Source: Archangium lipolyticum (GTDB lineage: Bacteria > Myxococcota > Myxococcia > Myxococcales > Myxococcaceae). Taken from it: a DNA stretch of 64,000 nucleotides. Under the pieces are notes generated by a model that was not told where the DNA came from, searched no databases, and saw nothing but the letters and a program-made list of their open reading frames with translations. The position numbers and the translations under genes were made by a program. The stretch spans positions 372,001-436,000 of the forward strand of contig NZ_JANKBZ010000003.1 in NCBI RefSeq assembly GCF_024623785.1. Direction: 5' to 3'. Shown here one piece after another: positions 17,925 through 30,473 of this stretch (within the stretch, counting starts at the first letter, position 1; the number at the start of each line of letters is the position of its first letter).

Positions 17925-18005
17925 CGGGCCTCGGAAAGCGGAGACACGCCCTCCGCGATGAACTACCTTGCTCGCAGGGGGCCGGCCCTTTCCCTTGGGG
18001 GAATG

Positions 18006-21000
18006 ATGAACGCCATGAAGTACCTGGTCCCGGCCCTCCTCGCGTGCGCCCTGTCCCTGCCGGGCTGCGGGCCGAGTGCACCCGAGCCCACCTCCCACTC
18101 CACCCGCACCTCCCAGCCGCTCGTGCTCCCGGGCTCCAAGCCCGTGCCCATCCCGAGCGTCCTCACCGCCAATGCGTCCTCCAACCCCTCCGACTCCGTG
18201 AGGGTGAATGGAACGTGGCTCTTCGTGGCGGACGATGGGGTCTCCGGCCGCGAGCTGTGGAAGACGGATGGCACTCCGGCCGGCACCGTCCTCCTCAAGG
18301 ACATCCGGCCCGGCGACGGCTCCTCCTCGCCCTCCTTCCGGGTGACCGTGGGCGGGGTGCTGTTCTTCCTCGCCGATGACGGCACCCACGGCTCCGAGCT
18401 GTGGAAGACGGATGGCACCGCCGAGGGCACCGTCCTCGTCCGGGACATCCGGCCCGGCCCGAATGGCTCATCGATCGATGACCCGACGAACGTCGACGGG
18501 ACCCTCTTCTTCACCGCCAACGACGGCACCCACGGTTCCGAGCTGTGGAAGACGGATGGCACCGCCGAGGGCACCGTCCTCGTCCGGGACATCCGGCCCG
18601 GCTCGGAAGACGCGAATCCCGACTACCTGACGAATATCAATGGGACTCTCTTCTTCGCCGCCAACGACGGCACTCACGGCGTCGAGCCGTGGAAGAGCGA
18701 TGGCACGCCGGACGGCACCTCCCTCATCAAGGACCTCCAGCCAGGCACGGAGAGCTCGTGGCCCCACGCGCTGATCGACTTCAACGGCGCCGTCTTCTTC
18801 GGCGCCACCGGAGCCAGCTCGGGTAACGGGCTGTGGAAGACGGATGGCACCGCCGACGGCACCCTCCAGGTCAAGGACCTGCCCACCAGCTGGGTCTACG
18901 TGAAGATGCACTCCCCGCTCATCGTGAACGGCACCCTCTTCTTCCTGTGGGACGCGGGCGCCGGTACGCCCGACGGCTACGGGCTGTGGAAGACGGATGG
19001 CACCACCGACGGCACCGTCCTCCTCGAGGCCTTCGCCTACGCCTACTCCGGCGATACGCTCGCGCGGCCCAGCGCCCTGACGGACGTCAACGGCACCCTC
19101 TTCTTCACCGCGAGAGACGCCACCCATGGCGTCGAGCTGTGGAAGAGCGATGGCACGCCGGACGGCACGGGCCTCGTCGAGGATCTCCAGCCCGGTCCTC
19201 TGGGCTCGCAGCCCACGGAGCTGCGGGTCATGGAGGGGACGCTCTTCTTCTCCGCCTGGACCGAGGCGACGGGACGCGAGCCGTGGAAGACGGATGGCAC
19301 CGCGACCACCCTGGTCAGGGACTTGATGCCCGGTCCGGAGGACTCGGCTCCCCGGTTGCTGTCGTACTCCGACGGCACCCTGCTCTTCTCCGTCCTGGAT
19401 CCCTCGGTGGGTCGCGAGCTGTGGAGGACGGACAGCACCTTCACGGACACCGTCCTGCTCAGGGACATCGCCGTCCAGAAGCTCTCCTCGAATCCCCAGG
19501 AGCTGACCCGGGTGGGCGACACCCTCTTCTTCACCGCCAACGACATCGCCTTCGGCAGCAGACCGTGGAAGCTCGAGCGCGGCTCGGTCACGCCCACCCG
19601 CCTCTCGTTCCCCTCTCTCGAGCCGCTCCTGAACACGGGGAGCATGGAGGAGATGAACGGCCTGCTCTTCTTCAGATCCGGCCGGAACGGGGGTTCGGGT
19701 GGTGATCTCTGGAAGAGCGATGGCACCCCCCAGGGCACCGCCATCCTCGCGAACCTCGGGGACTACGGCACCGTGCAAGCCGGAGAGCTGACGCGTGTGG
19801 GCAACCGCCTCTTCTTCACCGGTCTCGACAGCAACTACAAACAGGTGCTGTGGGAGAGCAACGGCACGAGGGCCGGTACCACCATCGTCATGAAGCTCAT
19901 CCATCGCTCCATCTCCGCGGATCCGAGCAATCTGACGGAAGTGGGTGACACCCTCTTCTTCACCCTCTGGTCCGGGGGGATCGGCACGGAGCTGTGGAGG
20001 TACGGCGGCCCCTCCGCGGGCTACCAGCGCGTGAAGGACATCAACCCCGCTTCCTGGGCGTCCTCGGAGCCCCGGGAGCTGACCGCGGTGGGCCACCACC
20101 TTTTCTTCTCCGCCGATGATGGCACCTCTGGTCGCGAGCTATGGAAGAGCGATGCCACCGAAGAGGGCACCGTCCGCATCAAGGACATCCACCCCGGTGC
20201 TGGCTCCTCCGAGCCCCAGCACGCCCTGAGCATCGAGGGCACCCTCTTCTTCTCCGCCGATGATGGCACCTCCGGGCGCGAGCTGTGGAAGAGCGATGGC
20301 ACCGAAGAGGGCACCGTCCTCGTCAAGGACATCCACCCCGGCTCGGGCTCCTCCGAGCCCCAGGCGCTCGCACGGGTCGGCGGCGTCCTCTTCTTCTCCG
20401 CCGATGACGGCACCTCGGGCAGGGAGCTGTGGCGCTCCGACGGCACCCCCGACGGCACCTTCCGCGTCCGCGACGTGCGCCCGGGTCCCGAGTCCTCCTC
20501 GCCCTCCGCCCTGACGGATGTGGAGGGCATGCTCTTCTTCTCCGCCGACGACGGCACCCACGGCGCCGAGCTGTGGCAGAGCGATGGCACCGAGGCCGGC
20601 ACCCTCCTCGTCGACGACATTCGCCCCGGCCCCCAGGGCTCCTCGCCCCGCAACATGTTGCAACTGCCCGGCAGGCTCGTCTTCCTCGCCGATGACGACA
20701 CCCGCACCGGTGAGCTCTGGGTGCTCGCCCTGCCACGCATCGCGTGCCCCGCTGGCCAGGTGGTGGAGACCCGCAGCGACCAGGGTGCCGCCGTCTCCTA
20801 CCCTCCCGCCCAGCCCGTGGACGGTGCCCCCCAGGAGGCTCGCATCGACTACAGCCATGCCTCCGGTGCCACCTTCCCCGTGGGCTCGACGACCGTCACC
20901 GTCACGCTCCACGAGGAGGGCCGCGAGCCCGAGAGCTGTACCTTCACTGTCACCGTGCGCGCCCTCCCTCCCCAGGACGATCCCCCCAAGGACGACCCCT

Positions 21001-21113
21001 CCAAGCACGACGGGTGGGGCTGCGCCTCGGGCGCTCCGGGTGTCACCGGGCTGTGGCTGCTGCTCTCGCTGCTGCCCCTGACCTCCGGCCGGCGGCGCGC
21101 CAGCCGCGGCTGA
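18006..21113 (+). CDS. ELWxxDGT-repeat lipoprotein with HYR domain and MYXO-CTERM tail (copy 2)
   Basis: A 1035-aa paralogue of the preceding gene with the same plan: lipobox LSLPGC, about 17 ELWxxDGT blades, a HYR-like domain and a MYXO-CTERM tail. N- and C-terminal parts are nearly identical to copy 1 while the blades between differ more. In the C-terminal motif the first cysteine of copy 1 (GCGCASG) is tryptophan (GWGCASG), leaving one Cys, which is enough for the family motif. Only 81 bp separate it from copy 1, so the two may be cotranscribed. The next gene downstream is convergent, 6 bp away. Confidence 0.85.
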   Translation: MNAMKYLVPALLACALSLPGCGPSAPEPTSHSTRTSQPLVLPGSKPVPIPSVLTANASSNPSDSVRVNGTWLFVADDGVSGRELWKTDGTPAGTVLLKDIRPGDGSSSPSFRVTVGGVLFFLADDGTHGSELWKTDGTAEGTVLVRDIRPGPNGSSIDDPTNVDGTLFFTANDGTHGSELWKTDGTAEGTVLVRDIRPGSEDANPDYLTNINGTLFFAANDGTHGVEPWKSDGTPDGTSLIKDLQPGTESSWPHALIDFNGAVFFGATGASSGNGLWKTDGTADGTLQVKDLPTSWVYVKMHSPLIVNGTLFFLWDAGAGTPDGYGLWKTDGTTDGTVLLEAFAYAYSGDTLARPSALTDVNGTLFFTARDATHGVELWKSDGTPDGTGLVEDLQPGPLGSQPTELRVMEGTLFFSAWTEATGREPWKTDGTATTLVRDLMPGPEDSAPRLLSYSDGTLLFSVLDPSVGRELWRTDSTFTDTVLLRDIAVQKLSSNPQELTRVGDTLFFTANDIAFGSRPWKLERGSVTPTRLSFPSLEPLLNTGSMEEMNGLLFFRSGRNGGSGGDLWKSDGTPQGTAILANLGDYGTVQAGELTRVGNRLFFTGLDSNYKQVLWESNGTRAGTTIVMKLIHRSISADPSNLTEVGDTLFFTLWSGGIGTELWRYGGPSAGYQRVKDINPASWASSEPRELTAVGHHLFFSADDGTSGRELWKSDATEEGTVRIKDIHPGAGSSEPQHALSIEGTLFFSADDGTSGRELWKSDGTEEGTVLVKDIHPGSGSSEPQALARVGGVLFFSADDGTSGRELWRSDGTPDGTFRVRDVRPGPESSSPSALTDVEGMLFFSADDGTHGAELWQSDGTEAGTLLVDDIRPGPQGSSPRNMLQLPGRLVFLADDDTRTGELWVLALPRIACPAGQVVETRSDQGAAVSYPPAQPVDGAPQEARIDYSHASGATFPVGSTTVTVTLHEEGREPESCTFTVTVRALPPQDDPPKDDPSKHDGWGCASGAPGVTGLWLLLSLLPLTSGRRRASRG

Positions 21114-24387: not shown

Positions 24388-25830
24388 ATGCGCATCCCGT
24401 CCCCCGCCGCGAAACACGGGCCTGGCCTCCCCATGCTCGAAGCCTCGCTCCGCAGAGACCTGGACCGCCTCGAGTACCCGAAGCGCTCCTGGGTCCTGCC
24501 CCGCCACACGCGGGATGGCCAGCCCATCCTGGACGTGCTCATCATCGGCGGGGGTCAGAGCGGGCTCGCGGCGGCCTTCGGGCTGATGCGCGAGAAGGTG
24601 ACCCGGCTGCTCGTCGTGGATGACAGCCCCCCGGGGCTCGCCGGGCCCTGGAAGACGTTCGCGCGCATGCACACGCTGCGCACGCCCAAGCACCTCACCG
24701 GGCCGGACCACAACCTCCCCAACCTCTGCTTCCAGAGCTGGTACGAGGCCCAGTACGGCGAGGAGGCCTGGCACTCCCTGGGGCTCATCCCCAAGGAGCT
24801 CTGGGCGGACTACCTCAACTGGTACCGCCAGTTCCTCGGCATCCCCGTGCGCAGCCACACCCGCGCGGGCGCCATCTCCTGGCGGGCCGAGGACTCCTGC
24901 TTCGTCATCCCCGTCCAGCCCACCGACGGCAGCGGCCCCGGGGAGACGCTCCTGGCGCGCAAGGTGGTGCTCGCCACCGGAATCGACGGCTCGGGGCGTT
25001 GGGAGACGCCCTCGATGGTGGCCCGCCTGCCCCGAGAGCTGTGGGCCCATACCCGCGATGACATCGACTTCGAGGCCCTGCGCGGCAAGCGCATCGGCGT
25101 ACTGGGGGCGGGTGCCTCGGCCTTCGACAACGCCTCCGTGGCACTGGAGCGAGGCGCCGCCGAGGTGCACATCTTCTACCGCCGCAAGAGCCTGCCCACG
25201 GTGAACGCCTACCGCTGGGCCGAGTTCGTCGGCTTCCTCAAGCACCATGCGGATCTGCCGGACGCGGATCGCTGGCGCTTCATCCGCCGCATCCTGGAGA
25301 TGGGGCAGCTGCCGCCGCACGACACCTATCACCGCGCCCGCGCCTACCCCCACTTCCACCTCCACGGGGACAGCCCGTGGCTGGATGCACAGGCGGTGGA
25401 CGGAGCCGCCCGCGTCACCACGCCGCATGGCACGTTCACCTTCGACAAGCTCATCGTCGGCAGCGGTACCGTGACGGACCTGTCGCTGCGCCCGGAGCTG
25501 GCCCACCTCATCGAGGACATCGCGCTCTGGAAGGACCGGTACACGCCGCCGCCCGCCGAGGCCAATTCGGACCTGGCGCGTCACCCCTACCTGGGCCCGG
25601 GCTTCGAGTTCCAGGAGAAGGTGCCCGGCCGCGCGCCCTACCTCGGCTCCGTCTTCAACTACACCTTCGGATGCCTGCTCTCGCTGGGCTTCGGTGGGGC
25701 GAGCATCTCCGGCATGAAATACAGCCTGCCCAAGCTGGTCTCGAGCATCACCCGGCAGCTGTATTGTGAGGACAAGGACGCGTTCTTCTCCTCCCTGATG
25801 GAGTACGACGTGAAGGAGTTCGAGCCGTGA
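24388..25830 (+). CDS. FMO-like FAD/NAD(P)H flavoprotein; candidate urate hydroxylase of the purine operon
   Basis: A 480-aa two-dinucleotide-domain flavoprotein. FAD binding is seen at VLIIGGGQSGLAAAFGL, the ATG motif at VVLATGIDGSG, and NAD(P)H binding at RIGVLGAGASAFDNAS followed by FYRRK. Between them LPRELWAHTRD keeps only the His of the FMO/BVMO signature. The gene opens a six-gene operon; its stop overlaps the allantoinase GTG as GTGA. All steps after urate are encoded downstream but no uricase, PuuD or HpxO type enzyme is visible, so the context points to urate oxidation to 5-hydroxyisourate. That role is inference. AGGGG lies just before the chosen ATG; 24433 is an alternative start. 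Confidence 0.75.
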   Translation: MRIPSPAAKHGPGLPMLEASLRRDLDRLEYPKRSWVLPRHTRDGQPILDVLIIGGGQSGLAAAFGLMREKVTRLLVVDDSPPGLAGPWKTFARMHTLRTPKHLTGPDHNLPNLCFQSWYEAQYGEEAWHSLGLIPKELWADYLNWYRQFLGIPVRSHTRAGAISWRAEDSCFVIPVQPTDGSGPGETLLARKVVLATGIDGSGRWETPSMVARLPRELWAHTRDDIDFEALRGKRIGVLGAGASAFDNASVALERGAAEVHIFYRRKSLPTVNAYRWAEFVGFLKHHADLPDADRWRFIRRILEMGQLPPHDTYHRARAYPHFHLHGDSPWLDAQAVDGAARVTTPHGTFTFDKLIVGSGTVTDLSLRPELAHLIEDIALWKDRYTPPPAEANSDLARHPYLGPGFEFQEKVPGRAPYLGSVFNYTFGCLLSLGFGGASISGMKYSLPKLVSSITRQLYCEDKDAFFSSLMEYDVKEFEP

Positions 25831-27191
25831 GCGGAAACCAGGTACTGCGCAGCAAGCGGGTCGTCACCGAGGGCGGCGTGCGCGAGGCCGCGGTGGTGAT
25901 CCGGGAGGGCAAGGTGGCGGCGGTGGTGTCACCGGCGGACGTGCCGGCGGGCCTGCCGGTGACGGACGTGGGCGACAAGGTGGTGATGCCGGGCGTGGTG
26001 GACTGCCACGCGCACATCAACGAGCCCGGCCGCACCGAGTGGGAGGGCTTCGAGACGGCCACGCGCGCGGCGGCCGCGGGCGGCATCACCACCGTGGTGG
26101 ACATGCCGCTCAACTCCATCCCCGCCACCACCACCCTGGACGCACTGCGGCAGAAGGCGGCCTCCGCCGAGGGCCACTGCGCCATCGACCATGGCTTCTG
26201 GGGCGGCGTCATCCCCAGCAACACGGGCGAGCTGGAGGCCATGGTCGACGCGGGCGTCACCGGCTTCAAGTGCTTCCTCATCCACTCGGGGGTGGACGAG
26301 TTCCCCCACGTCACCCGGGAGGACCTGGAGCGGGCCATGCCCATCCTGGCGCGGCGCGGCGTGCCCCTCATCGTCCACGCGGAGCTGACGCCCCACGAGG
26401 CCCCGCCCCAGGGAGACACGCGCACCTACCGCAGCTATCTGGAGTCGCGCCCCCGCCGCTGGGAGGACGACGCCATCCGGATGATGGTGGAGCTGTGCCG
26501 GAAGCACCGCGGACAGGTGCACATCGTCCACCTGTCGTCCTCGGACGCGCTGCCGGACATCGCCGCCGCGAAGCGCGAGGGCCTGCCCTTCAGCGTGGAG
26601 ACGTGCCCCCACTACCTCACCTTCGACGCGGAGCACATCCCCGACGGCGCCACGCACTTCAAGTGCGCACCGCCCATCCGCGAGGCGGAGAACCGCGAGG
26701 CGCTCTGGGCGGGACTGGCGCGCGGTGACATCGACATGGTGGTGTCGGACCACTCGCCGTGCACCCCCGCCCTCAAGCACCTGGACCGCGGAGACTTCGG
26801 CGCGGCGTGGGGCGGCATCGCGTCGCTCCAGTTCAGCCTGCCGGCCGTGTGGACGGGCATGCGCGCGCGCGGCCACGGGCTGGAGTCCCTGGTGCGGTGG
26901 ATGTGCCAGAACCCGGCCCGGCTCGTCGGCCTGACGGGTGTGAAGGGCTCGCTGACGCCCGGCGCGGACGCGGACCTCATCGTCTTCGATCCGGAGGCCA
27001 CCTTCACCCCCGAGGCCTCGGGCGTGCTGCACCGCCACAAGCTCACCCCGTACGCGGGCCGCCCGCTGGTGGGCGTGGTGGAGCAGACCTGGGTCCGGGG
27101 CGAGAAGGTTCACGACCGGAACGAGCCCTCGTCCCGCACGGTGGGCCGGTGGATTCGCCGCCCTGGAGTGGCGGCCAGTGGACTAAGGTAA
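25827..27191 (+). CDS. allB: Allantoinase
   Basis: A 454-aa amidohydrolase that opens the hydantoin ring of allantoin to give allantoate. The binuclear metal site is visible: DCHAHINEPG, the carbamylated Lys in GFKCFLIHSG, His in IVHAE and VHIVHLSSSDA, and the Asp of VVSDHSPC. ETCPHYLTFD is typical of the allantoinase/dihydroorotase group. It starts at a GTG overlapping the preceding stop, so translation is coupled to the flavoprotein gene. Position in a purine-degradation operon makes allantoinase far more likely than dihydropyrimidinase. Confidence 0.93.
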   Translation: MSGNQVLRSKRVVTEGGVREAAVVIREGKVAAVVSPADVPAGLPVTDVGDKVVMPGVVDCHAHINEPGRTEWEGFETATRAAAAGGITTVVDMPLNSIPATTTLDALRQKAASAEGHCAIDHGFWGGVIPSNTGELEAMVDAGVTGFKCFLIHSGVDEFPHVTREDLERAMPILARRGVPLIVHAELTPHEAPPQGDTRTYRSYLESRPRRWEDDAIRMMVELCRKHRGQVHIVHLSSSDALPDIAAAKREGLPFSVETCPHYLTFDAEHIPDGATHFKCAPPIREAENREALWAGLARGDIDMVVSDHSPCTPALKHLDRGDFGAAWGGIASLQFSLPAVWTGMRARGHGLESLVRWMCQNPARLVGLTGVKGSLTPGADADLIVFDPEATFTPEASGVLHRHKLTPYAGRPLVGVVEQTWVRGEKVHDRNEPSSRTVGRWIRRPGVAASGLR

Positions 27192-27209
27192 CCGCGAGGA
27201 GACCCCTGC

Positions 27210-28226
27210 ATGAACGCACCCGAGGAAGGCAAGGTCCGCGTCGCCTTCGCCGAGCTCATCGACCTGGCAGCCGAGAAGGTGGGCGGACGCGCCCTCTACG
27301 CCAACGACGAGTTCTTCGCCCCCAAGGAGAACCTGCTCAAGCCGGGGCGCGGCGTCTTCATCCCGGACAAGTACACGGAGTTCGGCAAGTGGATGGATGG
27401 CTGGGAGACGCGCCGCAAGCGCGTGCCGGGCCATGACTTCTGCATCATCCAGCTGGGCCTGCCGGGGGTCATCCGCGGGGTGAACGTGGACACCAACCAC
27501 TTCATCGGCAACTTCCCCGAGTACGCCTCGGTGGACGGCCTGGAGATTCAAGGCCAGCCCTCGGGCGAGTCCCTGGTGGACGCGGCGTGGACGGAGATCG
27601 TCCCGAAGACGAAGCTGGCCGGCGGGACGCAGAACTATCTGCCCGTCGCGAGCGAGCGGCGCTGGACGCACCTGCGCCTGCACATCTACCCGGACGGGGG
27701 CGTGGCGCGCTTGCGCGTGCACGGGGTGGTGACGCCGGACCTGGCGAAGCTGCGCTCCGGGGAGCTGGTGGACCTGGCCGCGGCGGAGAACGGCGGCCTC
27801 GTCGTCACCTGCAACGACGCCTTCTTCGGCCCCAAGGACAACCTCATCCTCCCCGGCCGCGCCAGCACCATGGGCGAGGGCTGGGAGACGCGCCGCAAGC
27901 GCGTGCCGGGCTTCGATTGGATCGTCGTGAAGCTGGCCGCGCCCGGCACCGTGCACCGCGTGGAGGTGGACACCAACCACTTCAAGGGCAACTTCCCGGA
28001 CATGTGCTCCCTGGAGGGCTGCACCCTGAAGGAGGACATCCTCGACTTCGCCAACGCCAAGGACATCGCGTGGCAGGAGATCCTCCCGCGCACGAAGCTT
28101 CAGGCGCACCACCGCCACTTCTTCGAAACCGAGCTGCGCGCCGCGGGGCCCTTCACGCACGTGCGGCTCAACATCTTCCCGGACGGAGGCATCAGCCGGC
28201 TCCGGGTGCACGGGCGGGCCACGTGA
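27210..28226 (+). CDS. alc: Allantoicase
   Basis: A 338-aa enzyme splitting allantoate into ureidoglycolate and urea. The protein is two similar jelly-roll halves. Each carries FF(A/G)PK(E/D)N, a GWETRRKRVPG block and VDTNHF(I/K)GNFP, so an internal duplication is plain, as known for allantoicases. GAGGAGA lies about 10 bp upstream of the ATG. It follows allantoinase by 18 bp and its stop overlaps the next start. The ureidoglycolate made here would need a lyase or hydrolase, which is not recognised in the window. Confidence 0.95.
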   Translation: MNAPEEGKVRVAFAELIDLAAEKVGGRALYANDEFFAPKENLLKPGRGVFIPDKYTEFGKWMDGWETRRKRVPGHDFCIIQLGLPGVIRGVNVDTNHFIGNFPEYASVDGLEIQGQPSGESLVDAAWTEIVPKTKLAGGTQNYLPVASERRWTHLRLHIYPDGGVARLRVHGVVTPDLAKLRSGELVDLAAAENGGLVVTCNDAFFGPKDNLILPGRASTMGEGWETRRKRVPGFDWIVVKLAAPGTVHRVEVDTNHFKGNFPDMCSLEGCTLKEDILDFANAKDIAWQEILPRTKLQAHHRHFFETELRAAGPFTHVRLNIFPDGGISRLRVHGRAT

Positions 28227-28735
28227 CCCGGCTCGACTGGCTCAACCGCCTGCCCGTCGAGGACGCCCAGGCGGAGTTCCTGCGCTGCTGCGGCTCCGGC
28301 CGCTGGGCCGAGGCCATGGCCCGCGCGCGCCCCTTCCCGAGCCAGGACGCCCTGTTCGCGGAGGCCTCGTGGCTCTGGTCCCAGACGGGGCCGGATGACT
28401 GGCGCGAGGCCATGCTGCACCACCCGCGCATCGGCGACGTCTCCAAGCTGCGCGAGAAGTACGCGGGCACCGGCGCCTGGTCCGAGCAGGAGCAGCGCGG
28501 CATCGAGGGCGCTGGCGAGGACGTCATCCAGGCGCTCGCCGACGGCAACCGCGCGTACGAGGAGCGCTTCGGCTTCATCTTCCTCGTGTGCGCCACGGGG
28601 AAGAGCGCGGCGGAGATGCTGGCCCTGCTGCGCGAGCGCATGAACAACGCGCCGGATCAGGAGCTTCGGGTCGCGGCGGACGAGCAGGCGAAGATCACCC
28701 GCATCCGGCTGGAGAAGCTCCTCGCGTCCCCATGA
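28223..28735 (+). CDS. uraD: OHCU decarboxylase
   Basis: A 170-aa 2-oxo-4-hydroxy-4-carboxy-5-ureidoimidazoline decarboxylase, the enzyme that yields (S)-allantoin. The catalytic block is AMLHHPRIGD, with the active-site His and downstream Asp; RFGFIFLVCATGKSA is the other hallmark. The start is a GTG overlapping the allantoicase stop (GTGA). The same frame is open much further upstream, but that is a shadow inside allantoicase, and the family length of about 165 residues agrees with this start. Confidence 0.94.
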   Translation: MTRLDWLNRLPVEDAQAEFLRCCGSGRWAEAMARARPFPSQDALFAEASWLWSQTGPDDWREAMLHHPRIGDVSKLREKYAGTGAWSEQEQRGIEGAGEDVIQALADGNRAYEERFGFIFLVCATGKSAAEMLALLRERMNNAPDQELRVAADEQAKITRIRLEKLLASP

Positions 28736-29073
28736 GCACCCTGTCCACGCACGTCCTCGACACGCAGTGGGGCCGCCCGGCGGCTGGCGTCCCCATCACC
28801 CTGGAGCACCAGGCCGGTGACGGCTGGCGGGAGCTGGCGCGCGGAACGACCAACGCGGATGGCCGCGTGCGCGACTTCCTGCCCGCCGGCACGCGACTGG
28901 AGCCCGGCACCTACCGGATGACGTTCCACACGGCGGAGTACTTCCGCGCGAACGCCGTCCGCGGCTTCTACCCGTACGTCTCGGTGGTGTTCGAGCTCGC
29001 CTCCCCGGACGAGCACTACCACGTGCCCCTGCTGCTGAGCCCCTTCGGCTACTCCACCTACCGGGGCAGCTGA
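28732..29073 (+). CDS. uraH: 5-hydroxyisourate hydrolase (transthyretin-like)
   Basis: A 113-aa enzyme hydrolysing 5-hydroxyisourate to OHCU, the step before uraD. The N-terminal LSTHVLDTQWGRPA carries the active-site His and the C-terminus is the diagnostic YRGS. FYPYVSVVFEL and EHYHVPLLLSPFGYSTY are family blocks. The ATG overlaps the uraD stop (ATGA). No signal peptide. The presence of uraH and uraD shows that the pathway starts from urate oxidised to 5-hydroxyisourate. Confidence 0.96.
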   Translation: MSTLSTHVLDTQWGRPAAGVPITLEHQAGDGWRELARGTTNADGRVRDFLPAGTRLEPGTYRMTFHTAEYFRANAVRGFYPYVSVVFELASPDEHYHVPLLLSPFGYSTYRGS

Positions 29074-29090: not shown

Positions 29091-30473
29091 ATGAAGACGA
29101 CCCTGACGCCCAATCGCCTCGCCGCCGCGCGCGCGGCGTTGAAGAAGGCCAACCAGGAGTATGCCCGGACCTTCCCGGGCGAGTCCGCCCGCCGCCAGCC
29201 CGTGCACACGGTGTACGGCGGCGCCCAGCTCTTCAAGGCGGAGACGGCCCGGAAGATGGGACAGATGGCCCTGGCCGCGCTGCACGAGTACGCCCCGGAT
29301 GCCACGGCGCTCGCCACGTGCCTGGAGCTGGACGCGGACATCGCCCGGCGCGTCCACGAGCGCATCCTCGCCAAGCTCGAGCGCGAGCCGGTGGAGGACT
29401 TCCGCATCGACTTCGAGGACGGCTACGGGCACCGGCCGGCCGAGGAGGAGGACGGGCACGCGGTCTCCACCGCCGGGGAGGTGGCCCGGGGCATGGAACA
29501 GGGCTCGCTGCCGCCCTTCATCGGCATCCGCATCAAGTCCCTCTCCGAGGAGCTGTTCGACCGGAGCGCGCGCACGCTGGAGCTCTTCGTCGGCACGCTG
29601 CTGGAGCGCACGGGCGGCAGGCTTCCGGACGACTTCGTCGTCACGCTGCCGAAGATCACCGTCCCCGAGCAGGTGACGGCGCTGGTGCGCATGCTGGAGC
29701 TGCTCGAGCAGGACCGGGGCCTGGAGTCCGGCGCGCTGAAGCTGGAGCTGATGGTGGAGACGCCGCAATCCCTCTTCGACCGGGAGGGACGGCTGGCGCT
29801 GCCCGCGCTGGTGGCGGCGGCGGAGGGACGCTGCGTCGGAGCGCACCTCGGGGTGTACGACTACACGGCCGCCTTCAACATCACCGCGGCGTACCAGAGC
29901 ATGACGCACCCGTCGGCCGACTTCGCGCGGGAGATGATGCAGGTGTCGCTGGCGGGCACGGGCGTGGCGCTCTCGGATGGCGCGACGAACGTGATGCCGG
30001 TGGGCCCGCACAAGCCGGGCCAGAGCCCGCTGACGGAGGCCCAGAAGAAGGAGAACCGCGAGGTGGTGCACCGCGCGTGGCGGCTGATGCACGGGCACAC
30101 GCGCCACTCGCTGGAGCGGGCCTTCTACCAGGGGTGGGACCTGCACCCGGCCCAGCTCCCGGTGCGCTACGCGACGGTGTACGCGTTCTTCCTGGAGGGC
30201 CTGGACGCGGCCTCACGCCGTCTGAAGTCCTTCATCGAGAAGGCGGCCCAGGCGACGCTGCTCGGCGACGTCTTCGACGACGCGGCCACGGGCCAGGGCC
30301 TGCTCAACTACTTCCTGCGCGGCCTCGCCTGCGGGGCCCTCACCGAGGAGGAAGCCCGGGCGGCGGGGCTGACGCTGGAGGAGCTGCGCAGCCGCTCGTT
30401 CCTGAAGATCCTGGAGGGCCGCCGGAAGACGGACGCCCCGGGGGCGCCTACACCGTCAGCGGCTCGGAGGTGA
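29091..30473 (+). CDS. CitE/malate-synthase-like TIM-barrel protein (DUF6986 type)
   Basis: A 460-aa cytoplasmic protein ending the purine operon, 17 bp after uraH. The sequence has the marks of the HpcH/CitE/malate synthase barrel: FRIDFEDGYGHRP with Mg-binding acidic residues, FIGIRIKSL with an Arg, LPKITVPEQV, and LELMVETPQSLFD. It resembles proteins annotated DUF6986 or aldolase/citrate lyase. Since allantoicase and later steps release ureidoglycolate and then glyoxylate, a role in splitting or condensing these two-carbon products is attractive, but no reaction is proven. Its 3' end overlaps the convergent next gene by 26 bp. Confidence 0.7.
   Translation: MKTTLTPNRLAAARAALKKANQEYARTFPGESARRQPVHTVYGGAQLFKAETARKMGQMALAALHEYAPDATALATCLELDADIARRVHERILAKLEREPVEDFRIDFEDGYGHRPAEEEDGHAVSTAGEVARGMEQGSLPPFIGIRIKSLSEELFDRSARTLELFVGTLLERTGGRLPDDFVVTLPKITVPEQVTALVRMLELLEQDRGLESGALKLELMVETPQSLFDREGRLALPALVAAAEGRCVGAHLGVYDYTAAFNITAAYQSMTHPSADFAREMMQVSLAGTGVALSDGATNVMPVGPHKPGQSPLTEAQKKENREVVHRAWRLMHGHTRHSLERAFYQGWDLHPAQLPVRYATVYAFFLEGLDAASRRLKSFIEKAAQATLLGDVFDDAATGQGLLNYFLRGLACGALTEEEARAAGLTLEELRSRSFLKILEGRRKTDAPGAPTPSAARR

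Follow-up and report, generated by a model that had tools for sequence, protein, structure and literature searches.

A predicted HpyO-type urate hydroxylase heads a purine-degradation operon of Archangium lipolyticum and alternates with PuuD among sampled Myxococcota

The described enzymes of urate oxidation closest to the system reported here are HpxO of Klebsiella, a flavin adenine dinucleotide (FAD) urate hydroxylase that uses reduced nicotinamide adenine dinucleotide or its phosphate [NAD(P)H], the membrane cytochrome c urate oxidase PuuD, and the HpyO protein of Xanthomonas, a urate oxidase that uses FAD and NAD(P)H, is non-homologous to HpxO and represents a distinct family (PMC4562309). 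According to the same paper, the founding description of HpyO is that of Michiel et al. 2012 (pmid 23760935, as cited therein), and hpxO and hpyO each occur in large families rich in paralogues. We have analyzed a 64,000-nucleotide stretch of the genome of Archangium lipolyticum (contig NZ_JANKBZ010000003.1, positions 372,001 to 436,000, forward strand; hereafter the window), which contains a purine-degradation operon whose first gene (24388-25830, + strand) encodes a flavoprotein of 480 residues, followed by genes for allantoinase (allB), allantoicase (alc), 2-oxo-4-hydroxy-4-carboxy-5-ureidoimidazoline (OHCU) decarboxylase (uraD) and 5-hydroxyisourate hydrolase (uraH). The flavoprotein is, with high confidence, an HpyO-type urate hydroxylase, predicted to be a class B monooxygenase with one FAD-binding and one NAD(P)H-binding domain. 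It is very probably a member of the known HpyO family, filling a known slot of the pathway with a known kind of enzyme. The reaction predicted for it is that of HpxO and PuuD.

The distribution of the flavoprotein was surveyed in 146 genomes of the phylum of the window (Myxococcota), 65 of which belong to its family (Myxococcaceae), using a flavoprotein threshold of E ≤ 1e-30. UraH was found above its cut-off in 60 genomes, the flavoprotein in 41 and PuuD in 29, and profile searches for Uox gave no match in any of the 146. In each of the 41 flavoprotein genomes, all of them from the family of the window (41 of its 65 genomes), uraH lies downstream on the contig and strand of the flavoprotein gene, at 2911-4522 bp between match ends; co-occurrence with uraH in other genomes, which the first-pass annotation had proposed as a check, holds for all 41. 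The other 19 of the 60 uraH genomes all carry PuuD, no genome carries both the flavoprotein and PuuD, and no uraH genome lacks both. Ten PuuD genomes have no uraH above the cut-off, and one genome (G102) that falls below the PF00576 cut-off was omitted from the 60. The flavoprotein gene adjoins allB in all 30 loci fetched from the phylum (L009-L038). In one genome of the family of the window (G079), PuuD, consisting of PF06181 and a cytochrome c domain, occupies the slot of the flavoprotein in the same operon (PuuD-allB-alc-uraD-uraH-DUF6986), and in G131, from another family of the order, a PuuD match lies just ahead of allB on the same strand, as judged by coordinates. This exact alternation in the 60 uraH genomes, together with the slot swap in G079, bears out the earlier nomination of the flavoprotein as a candidate urate hydroxylase: the two unrelated proteins, only one of which has a cytochrome c domain, fill the same pathway place in the phylum. 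For 41 of the 65 genomes sampled from the family, the uricase is thereby indicated to be an HpyO-type urate hydroxylase, and the swap offers a natural comparison between a membrane cytochrome-linked enzyme and a soluble flavoenzyme. In two PuuD genomes (L136 and L137) the alc-uraD-uraH-DUF6986 block is kept and allB was not found in the fetched stretch.

Known uricases were sought by profile in the source genome (12.6 Mb, 75 contigs). There was no match to Uox (PF01014), for which Bacillus subtilis and Haloferax volcanii were positive as controls, nor to PuuD (PF06181), for which Caulobacter vibrioides was positive; no protein in the genome reached the 500-bit cut-off of the HpxO model NF033623, the best two scoring 256 and 232 bits (L001 and L002). 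The remark in the first-pass annotation that no Uox, PuuD or HpxO is seen therefore extends, as far as these searches reach, to the whole genome. Its statement that the operon lacks known uricases has to be withdrawn, however, as it overlooked HpyO, a known FAD/NAD(P)H urate oxidase of Xanthomonas, a genus in which the homologue of the flavoprotein sits between uraD and uraH. Urate can be made in the source genome, since the xanthine dehydrogenase subunit XdhB is matched above its cut-off (1048 bits, cut-off 850).

Relatives of the flavoprotein were examined at the best 80 of 288 genome-contig loci and at 13 of 339 plasmid records. UraD or uraH occurs in the fetched stretch of 40 of the 80 genome loci and of four of the 13 plasmid loci; the order uraD-flavoprotein-uraH is seen in two Xanthomonas species, sphingomonads and Niveispirillum, and the order uraD-uraH-flavoprotein in Priestia and one Bacillus. 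The Xanthomonas cluster in L120 comprises LysR, allantoate amidohydrolase, aminotransferase, puuE allantoinase, hpxZ, uraD, flavoprotein and uraH genes, and the flavoprotein is the sole oxidoreductase match among its 11 scanned open reading frames (ORFs). The window flavoprotein is 47.3% identical to this protein over 455 residues and 45.9% identical over 462 residues to its counterpart from L114. From the genus and the gene cluster we infer that the Xanthomonas flavoprotein gene is hpyO. Like the window protein, HpyO of Xanthomonas is then a FAD/NAD(P)-type flavoprotein, is not HpxO-like and is accompanied by uraD and uraH; the two differ in operon place, the window gene standing first, before allB, and the Xanthomonas homologue between uraD and uraH. 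An unknown class of uricase was also considered and set aside, as HpyO and the Xanthomonas cluster account for the flavoprotein.

Some of these loci deserve separate mention. A Priestia filamentosa plasmid (p5, 98 kb; L042) carries a symporter-uraD-uraH-flavoprotein set, with a gene for a Tn3-family transposase in the same fetched stretch. A record named Comamonas sp. KCTC 72670 (L052) has an operon of the window type; its flavoprotein is 75% identical to that of the window and branches in the tree within the sequences from the same phylum as the window. Either this genome is misnamed or mixed, or a transfer has taken place. The tree places the flavoprotein of a record named Frankia sp. RB7 (L105) within a group of Bradyrhizobium sequences, suggesting that this genome is misnamed.

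The flavoprotein exceeds the cut-offs of PF13454, PF07992, PF13434 and PF13738, and the two dinucleotide-binding motifs reported in the first-pass annotation, GGGQSG and GAGASA, both of the GxGxxG type, were recovered by motif scan at residues 54 and 240. It had also been placed outside the HpxO class, in line with which NF033623 (cut-off 500 bits) does not match it at E 0.001; it thus belongs to a family other than that of HpxO, which we take to be PF01494. Its predicted structure (mean predicted local distance difference test score, pLDDT, 90.7) is best compared with PvdA (Z 28.7, root mean square deviation 3.1, 374 residues), and further matches by structure comparison and Foldseek were KtzI, the flavin-containing monooxygenase (FMO) 4a9w and SidA. 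The model adopts the fold of class B flavin monooxygenases, which FMOs and N-hydroxylating monooxygenases (NMOs) share, and its nearest neighbours are mostly of the latter kind. PvdA, KtzI, SidA and DfoA, all NMOs, have this fold in common with it (about 374-395 residues, Z 24-29) but are only 13-17% identical in sequence and act on an amine nitrogen. A sequence search of solved structures gave one weak match (4usr, E 2.5e-4). The classical FMO fingerprint, taken here as FxGxxxHxxx(Y/F), is present in none of the 123 rows of the flavoprotein family, window protein included; the FMO-type architecture proposed earlier therefore stands as regards fold class but not in the sense of a classical FMO.

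A tree was built from 99 of these 123 rows, omitting 24 close relatives from the phylum (70-94% identical to the window protein). Among the 51 rows labelled as urate-linked are L053, which shows allB only on a short contig, and five from the phylum for which the fetched sequence stops within or ahead of allantoicase. Urate-linked rows fall into three main clades, separated by clades in which the gene context is different; the least number of forced changes is six, several deep forks remain open, and the myxobacterial clade stands apart from the Xanthomonas homologues. Constraining 67 urate-type rows to a single clade cost 31.6 log units, with a p-value of 0.069 in the approximately unbiased test (p-AU), for a group named after the tree had been seen; it adds to the labelled rows L054, L066, L075 and L111 and 12 Paenibacillus-type rows without uraD or uraH in the stretch. 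Nine residues (T99, I199, N273, E279, Q307, P309, S441, G442 and E477) are identical in the window protein and both Xanthomonas proteins. All nine are found in 63 of the 99 rows and they are mostly different in a 17-row Roseomonas/Bradyrhizobium-type clade, although these markers were picked after the groups were seen and on the same rows.

Several observations weigh against assigning the flavoprotein to HpyO and to urate. Neither uraD nor uraH was found in the stretch at 40 of the 80 genome and nine of the 13 plasmid loci, some of them shortened by contig ends, and similarity alone does not prove function because family members thus occur without urate genes close by. The link to HpyO of X. 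campestris rests on genus and gene cluster and not on an HpyO sequence. Because the genomes of the phylum are akin, the 41/19 split overstates the number of independent events, which is not 60. Outside the phylum, presence of uraH anywhere in the genome does not separate the groups, as 32 of 35 genomes are positive; it is found in all 12 genomes of the Paenibacillus-type rows and in 14 of the 17 from the Roseomonas/Bradyrhizobium-type clade, and the latter figure also speaks against a sharp split into sub-families. All nine markers are also present in 16 rows that have neither uraD nor uraH in the stretch, and L040, L045 and L059, likewise without these genes, differ at one. Finally, the urate-linked rows are not one clade in the tree, though a single clade is not rejected. 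The spread of these rows over three main clades with six forced changes, and the cost of uniting 67 of them, would be expected if the myxobacterial urate hydroxylases had arisen separately from Xanthomonas HpyO within the flavoprotein family, an origin compatible with the same chemistry. We regard this as unlikely, given that the united group was defined after the fact, that deep forks are open, and that the window and Xanthomonas proteins agree at nine marker residues, even if these were chosen on the same rows. A different substrate, another purine-pathway compound or a hydantoin-like ring, with some other enzyme oxidizing urate, would suit certain relatives without uraD or uraH in the stretch, namely L040 and L078 beside xanthine-dehydrogenase-like genes, L045 beside an annotated 8-oxoguanine deaminase and L098 beside an amidohydrolase, all of which are possible hydroxylases of other purine-like rings. 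For the window protein such a role is most improbable, as it would leave unexplained the exact alternation with PuuD in the 60 uraH genomes and the exchange of slots in G079.

Could 5-hydroxyisourate instead be made by an HpxO-like group A flavin monooxygenase encoded elsewhere in the genome, leaving the operon flavoprotein to another role? The two HpxO-like proteins have as best matches in the PDB the chains 3rp6/3rp8 (182 and 175 bits), which we take to be HpxO of Klebsiella (3RP6-3RP8), and at the position that we take as that of Arg204, an important residue of HpxO, both L001 and L002 have an arginine, for which reason we do not call them unrelated to HpxO. Of the 41 genomes with the flavoprotein, 32 also encode proteins of this kind at E ≤ 1e-60. 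Their scores, on the other hand, are about half of the HpxO cut-off, and no purine gene was seen among the ORFs flanking either of them, as judged by eye with no family scan. At E ≤ 1e-60, with 12 first-look candidates scored per genome so that misses are possible, HpxO-like proteins occur in 39 of the 146 genomes; besides the 32 just mentioned these are two with PuuD and uraH and five without uraH above the cut-off, and nine of the 41 flavoprotein genomes have none. Allowing for such misses, they do not track uraH across the sample. No genome of the 146 had a match at E ≤ 1e-100, in a search that had no positive control and carries little weight alone. L001 and L002 were accordingly rejected as the missing uricase on account of their scores and of a distribution that does not follow uraH, and there is only a slight chance that either supplies 5-hydroxyisourate to the pathway.

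For the favoured HpyO-type urate hydroxylase, a reaction course can be proposed by analogy with class B monooxygenases. NAD(P)H would reduce the bound FAD, the reduced flavin would react with O2 to give a C4a-(hydro)peroxyflavin, and the distal oxygen of this intermediate would be transferred to C5 of urate, yielding 5-hydroxyisourate and water with no release of H2O2. UraH would then hydrolyze 5-hydroxyisourate to OHCU, UraD would decarboxylate OHCU to (S)-allantoin, AllB would open (S)-allantoin to allantoate, and allantoicase would split allantoate into urea and ureidoglycolate; these four reactions are established steps of the respective families. The genes all lie on the + strand and almost touch one another. 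The flavoprotein gene overlaps allB (25827..27191; TIGR03178, 580 bits, cut-off 358) by 4 bp (25827-25830), exactly as first described, and is followed by alc (27210..28226; PF03561; TIGR02961, 449 bits, cut-off 278), uraD (28223..28735; PF09349; TIGR03180, 182 bits, cut-off 139) and uraH (28735..29073; PF00576; TIGR02962, 153 bits, cut-off 87). Profile matches thus support all five genes that the first-pass annotation had assigned to an operon spanning 24388-29073, but not the end it had given, as a sixth gene on the same strand, encoding a DUF6986 protein (29091..30473; PF22484, 627 bits), begins 17 bp past uraH.

The predicted structure of the DUF6986 protein (mean pLDDT 86) is matched by Foldseek, among the 50 rows shown, to CitE-like lyases, malyl-CoA (coenzyme A) lyase and malate synthases (E 2e-6 to 2e-4); a sequence search of solved structures gave no match, no NCBIfam model matched it, and a literature search under that name gave no paper. 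The malate-synthase/CitE-type fold of the model makes it a candidate glyoxylate-consuming enzyme, a role that we put forward as a lead. Among 14 rows compared, eight genomes have the uraH and DUF6986 matches on one strand with 67-74 bp between them; the flavoprotein is present in five of these, that of the window among them, and PuuD in three. DUF6986 adjoins uraH in five of the 41 genomes that carry the flavoprotein and lies 3.8-5.2 kb from it in three; a fixed place for it in the pathway is weakened because in the remaining 33 it lies on another contig or at least about 1 Mb away. DUF6986 is also present in genomes without uraH. It is conceivable, though rather doubtful, that the six genes make up a complete route of their own by which urate is led towards central metabolism. 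The HpyO-type enzyme would then have replaced PuuD, and DUF6986 would be an unrecognised malate-synthase-like enzyme condensing ureidoglycolate-derived glyoxylate with an acyl-CoA.

These assignments bear on genome annotation. No NCBIfam model reaches its cut-off with the window flavoprotein or with its Xanthomonas homologue, and many plasmid records name the relatives merely 'NAD(P)/FAD-dependent oxidoreductase'; urate pathways will therefore look incomplete. A literature search joining uric acid, Myxococc- and allantoinase found no paper. Elsewhere in the window, at 17958-21113, inspection of the translation by eye reveals a large protein with many ELWKSDGT-type repeats and a C-terminal hydrophobic stretch.

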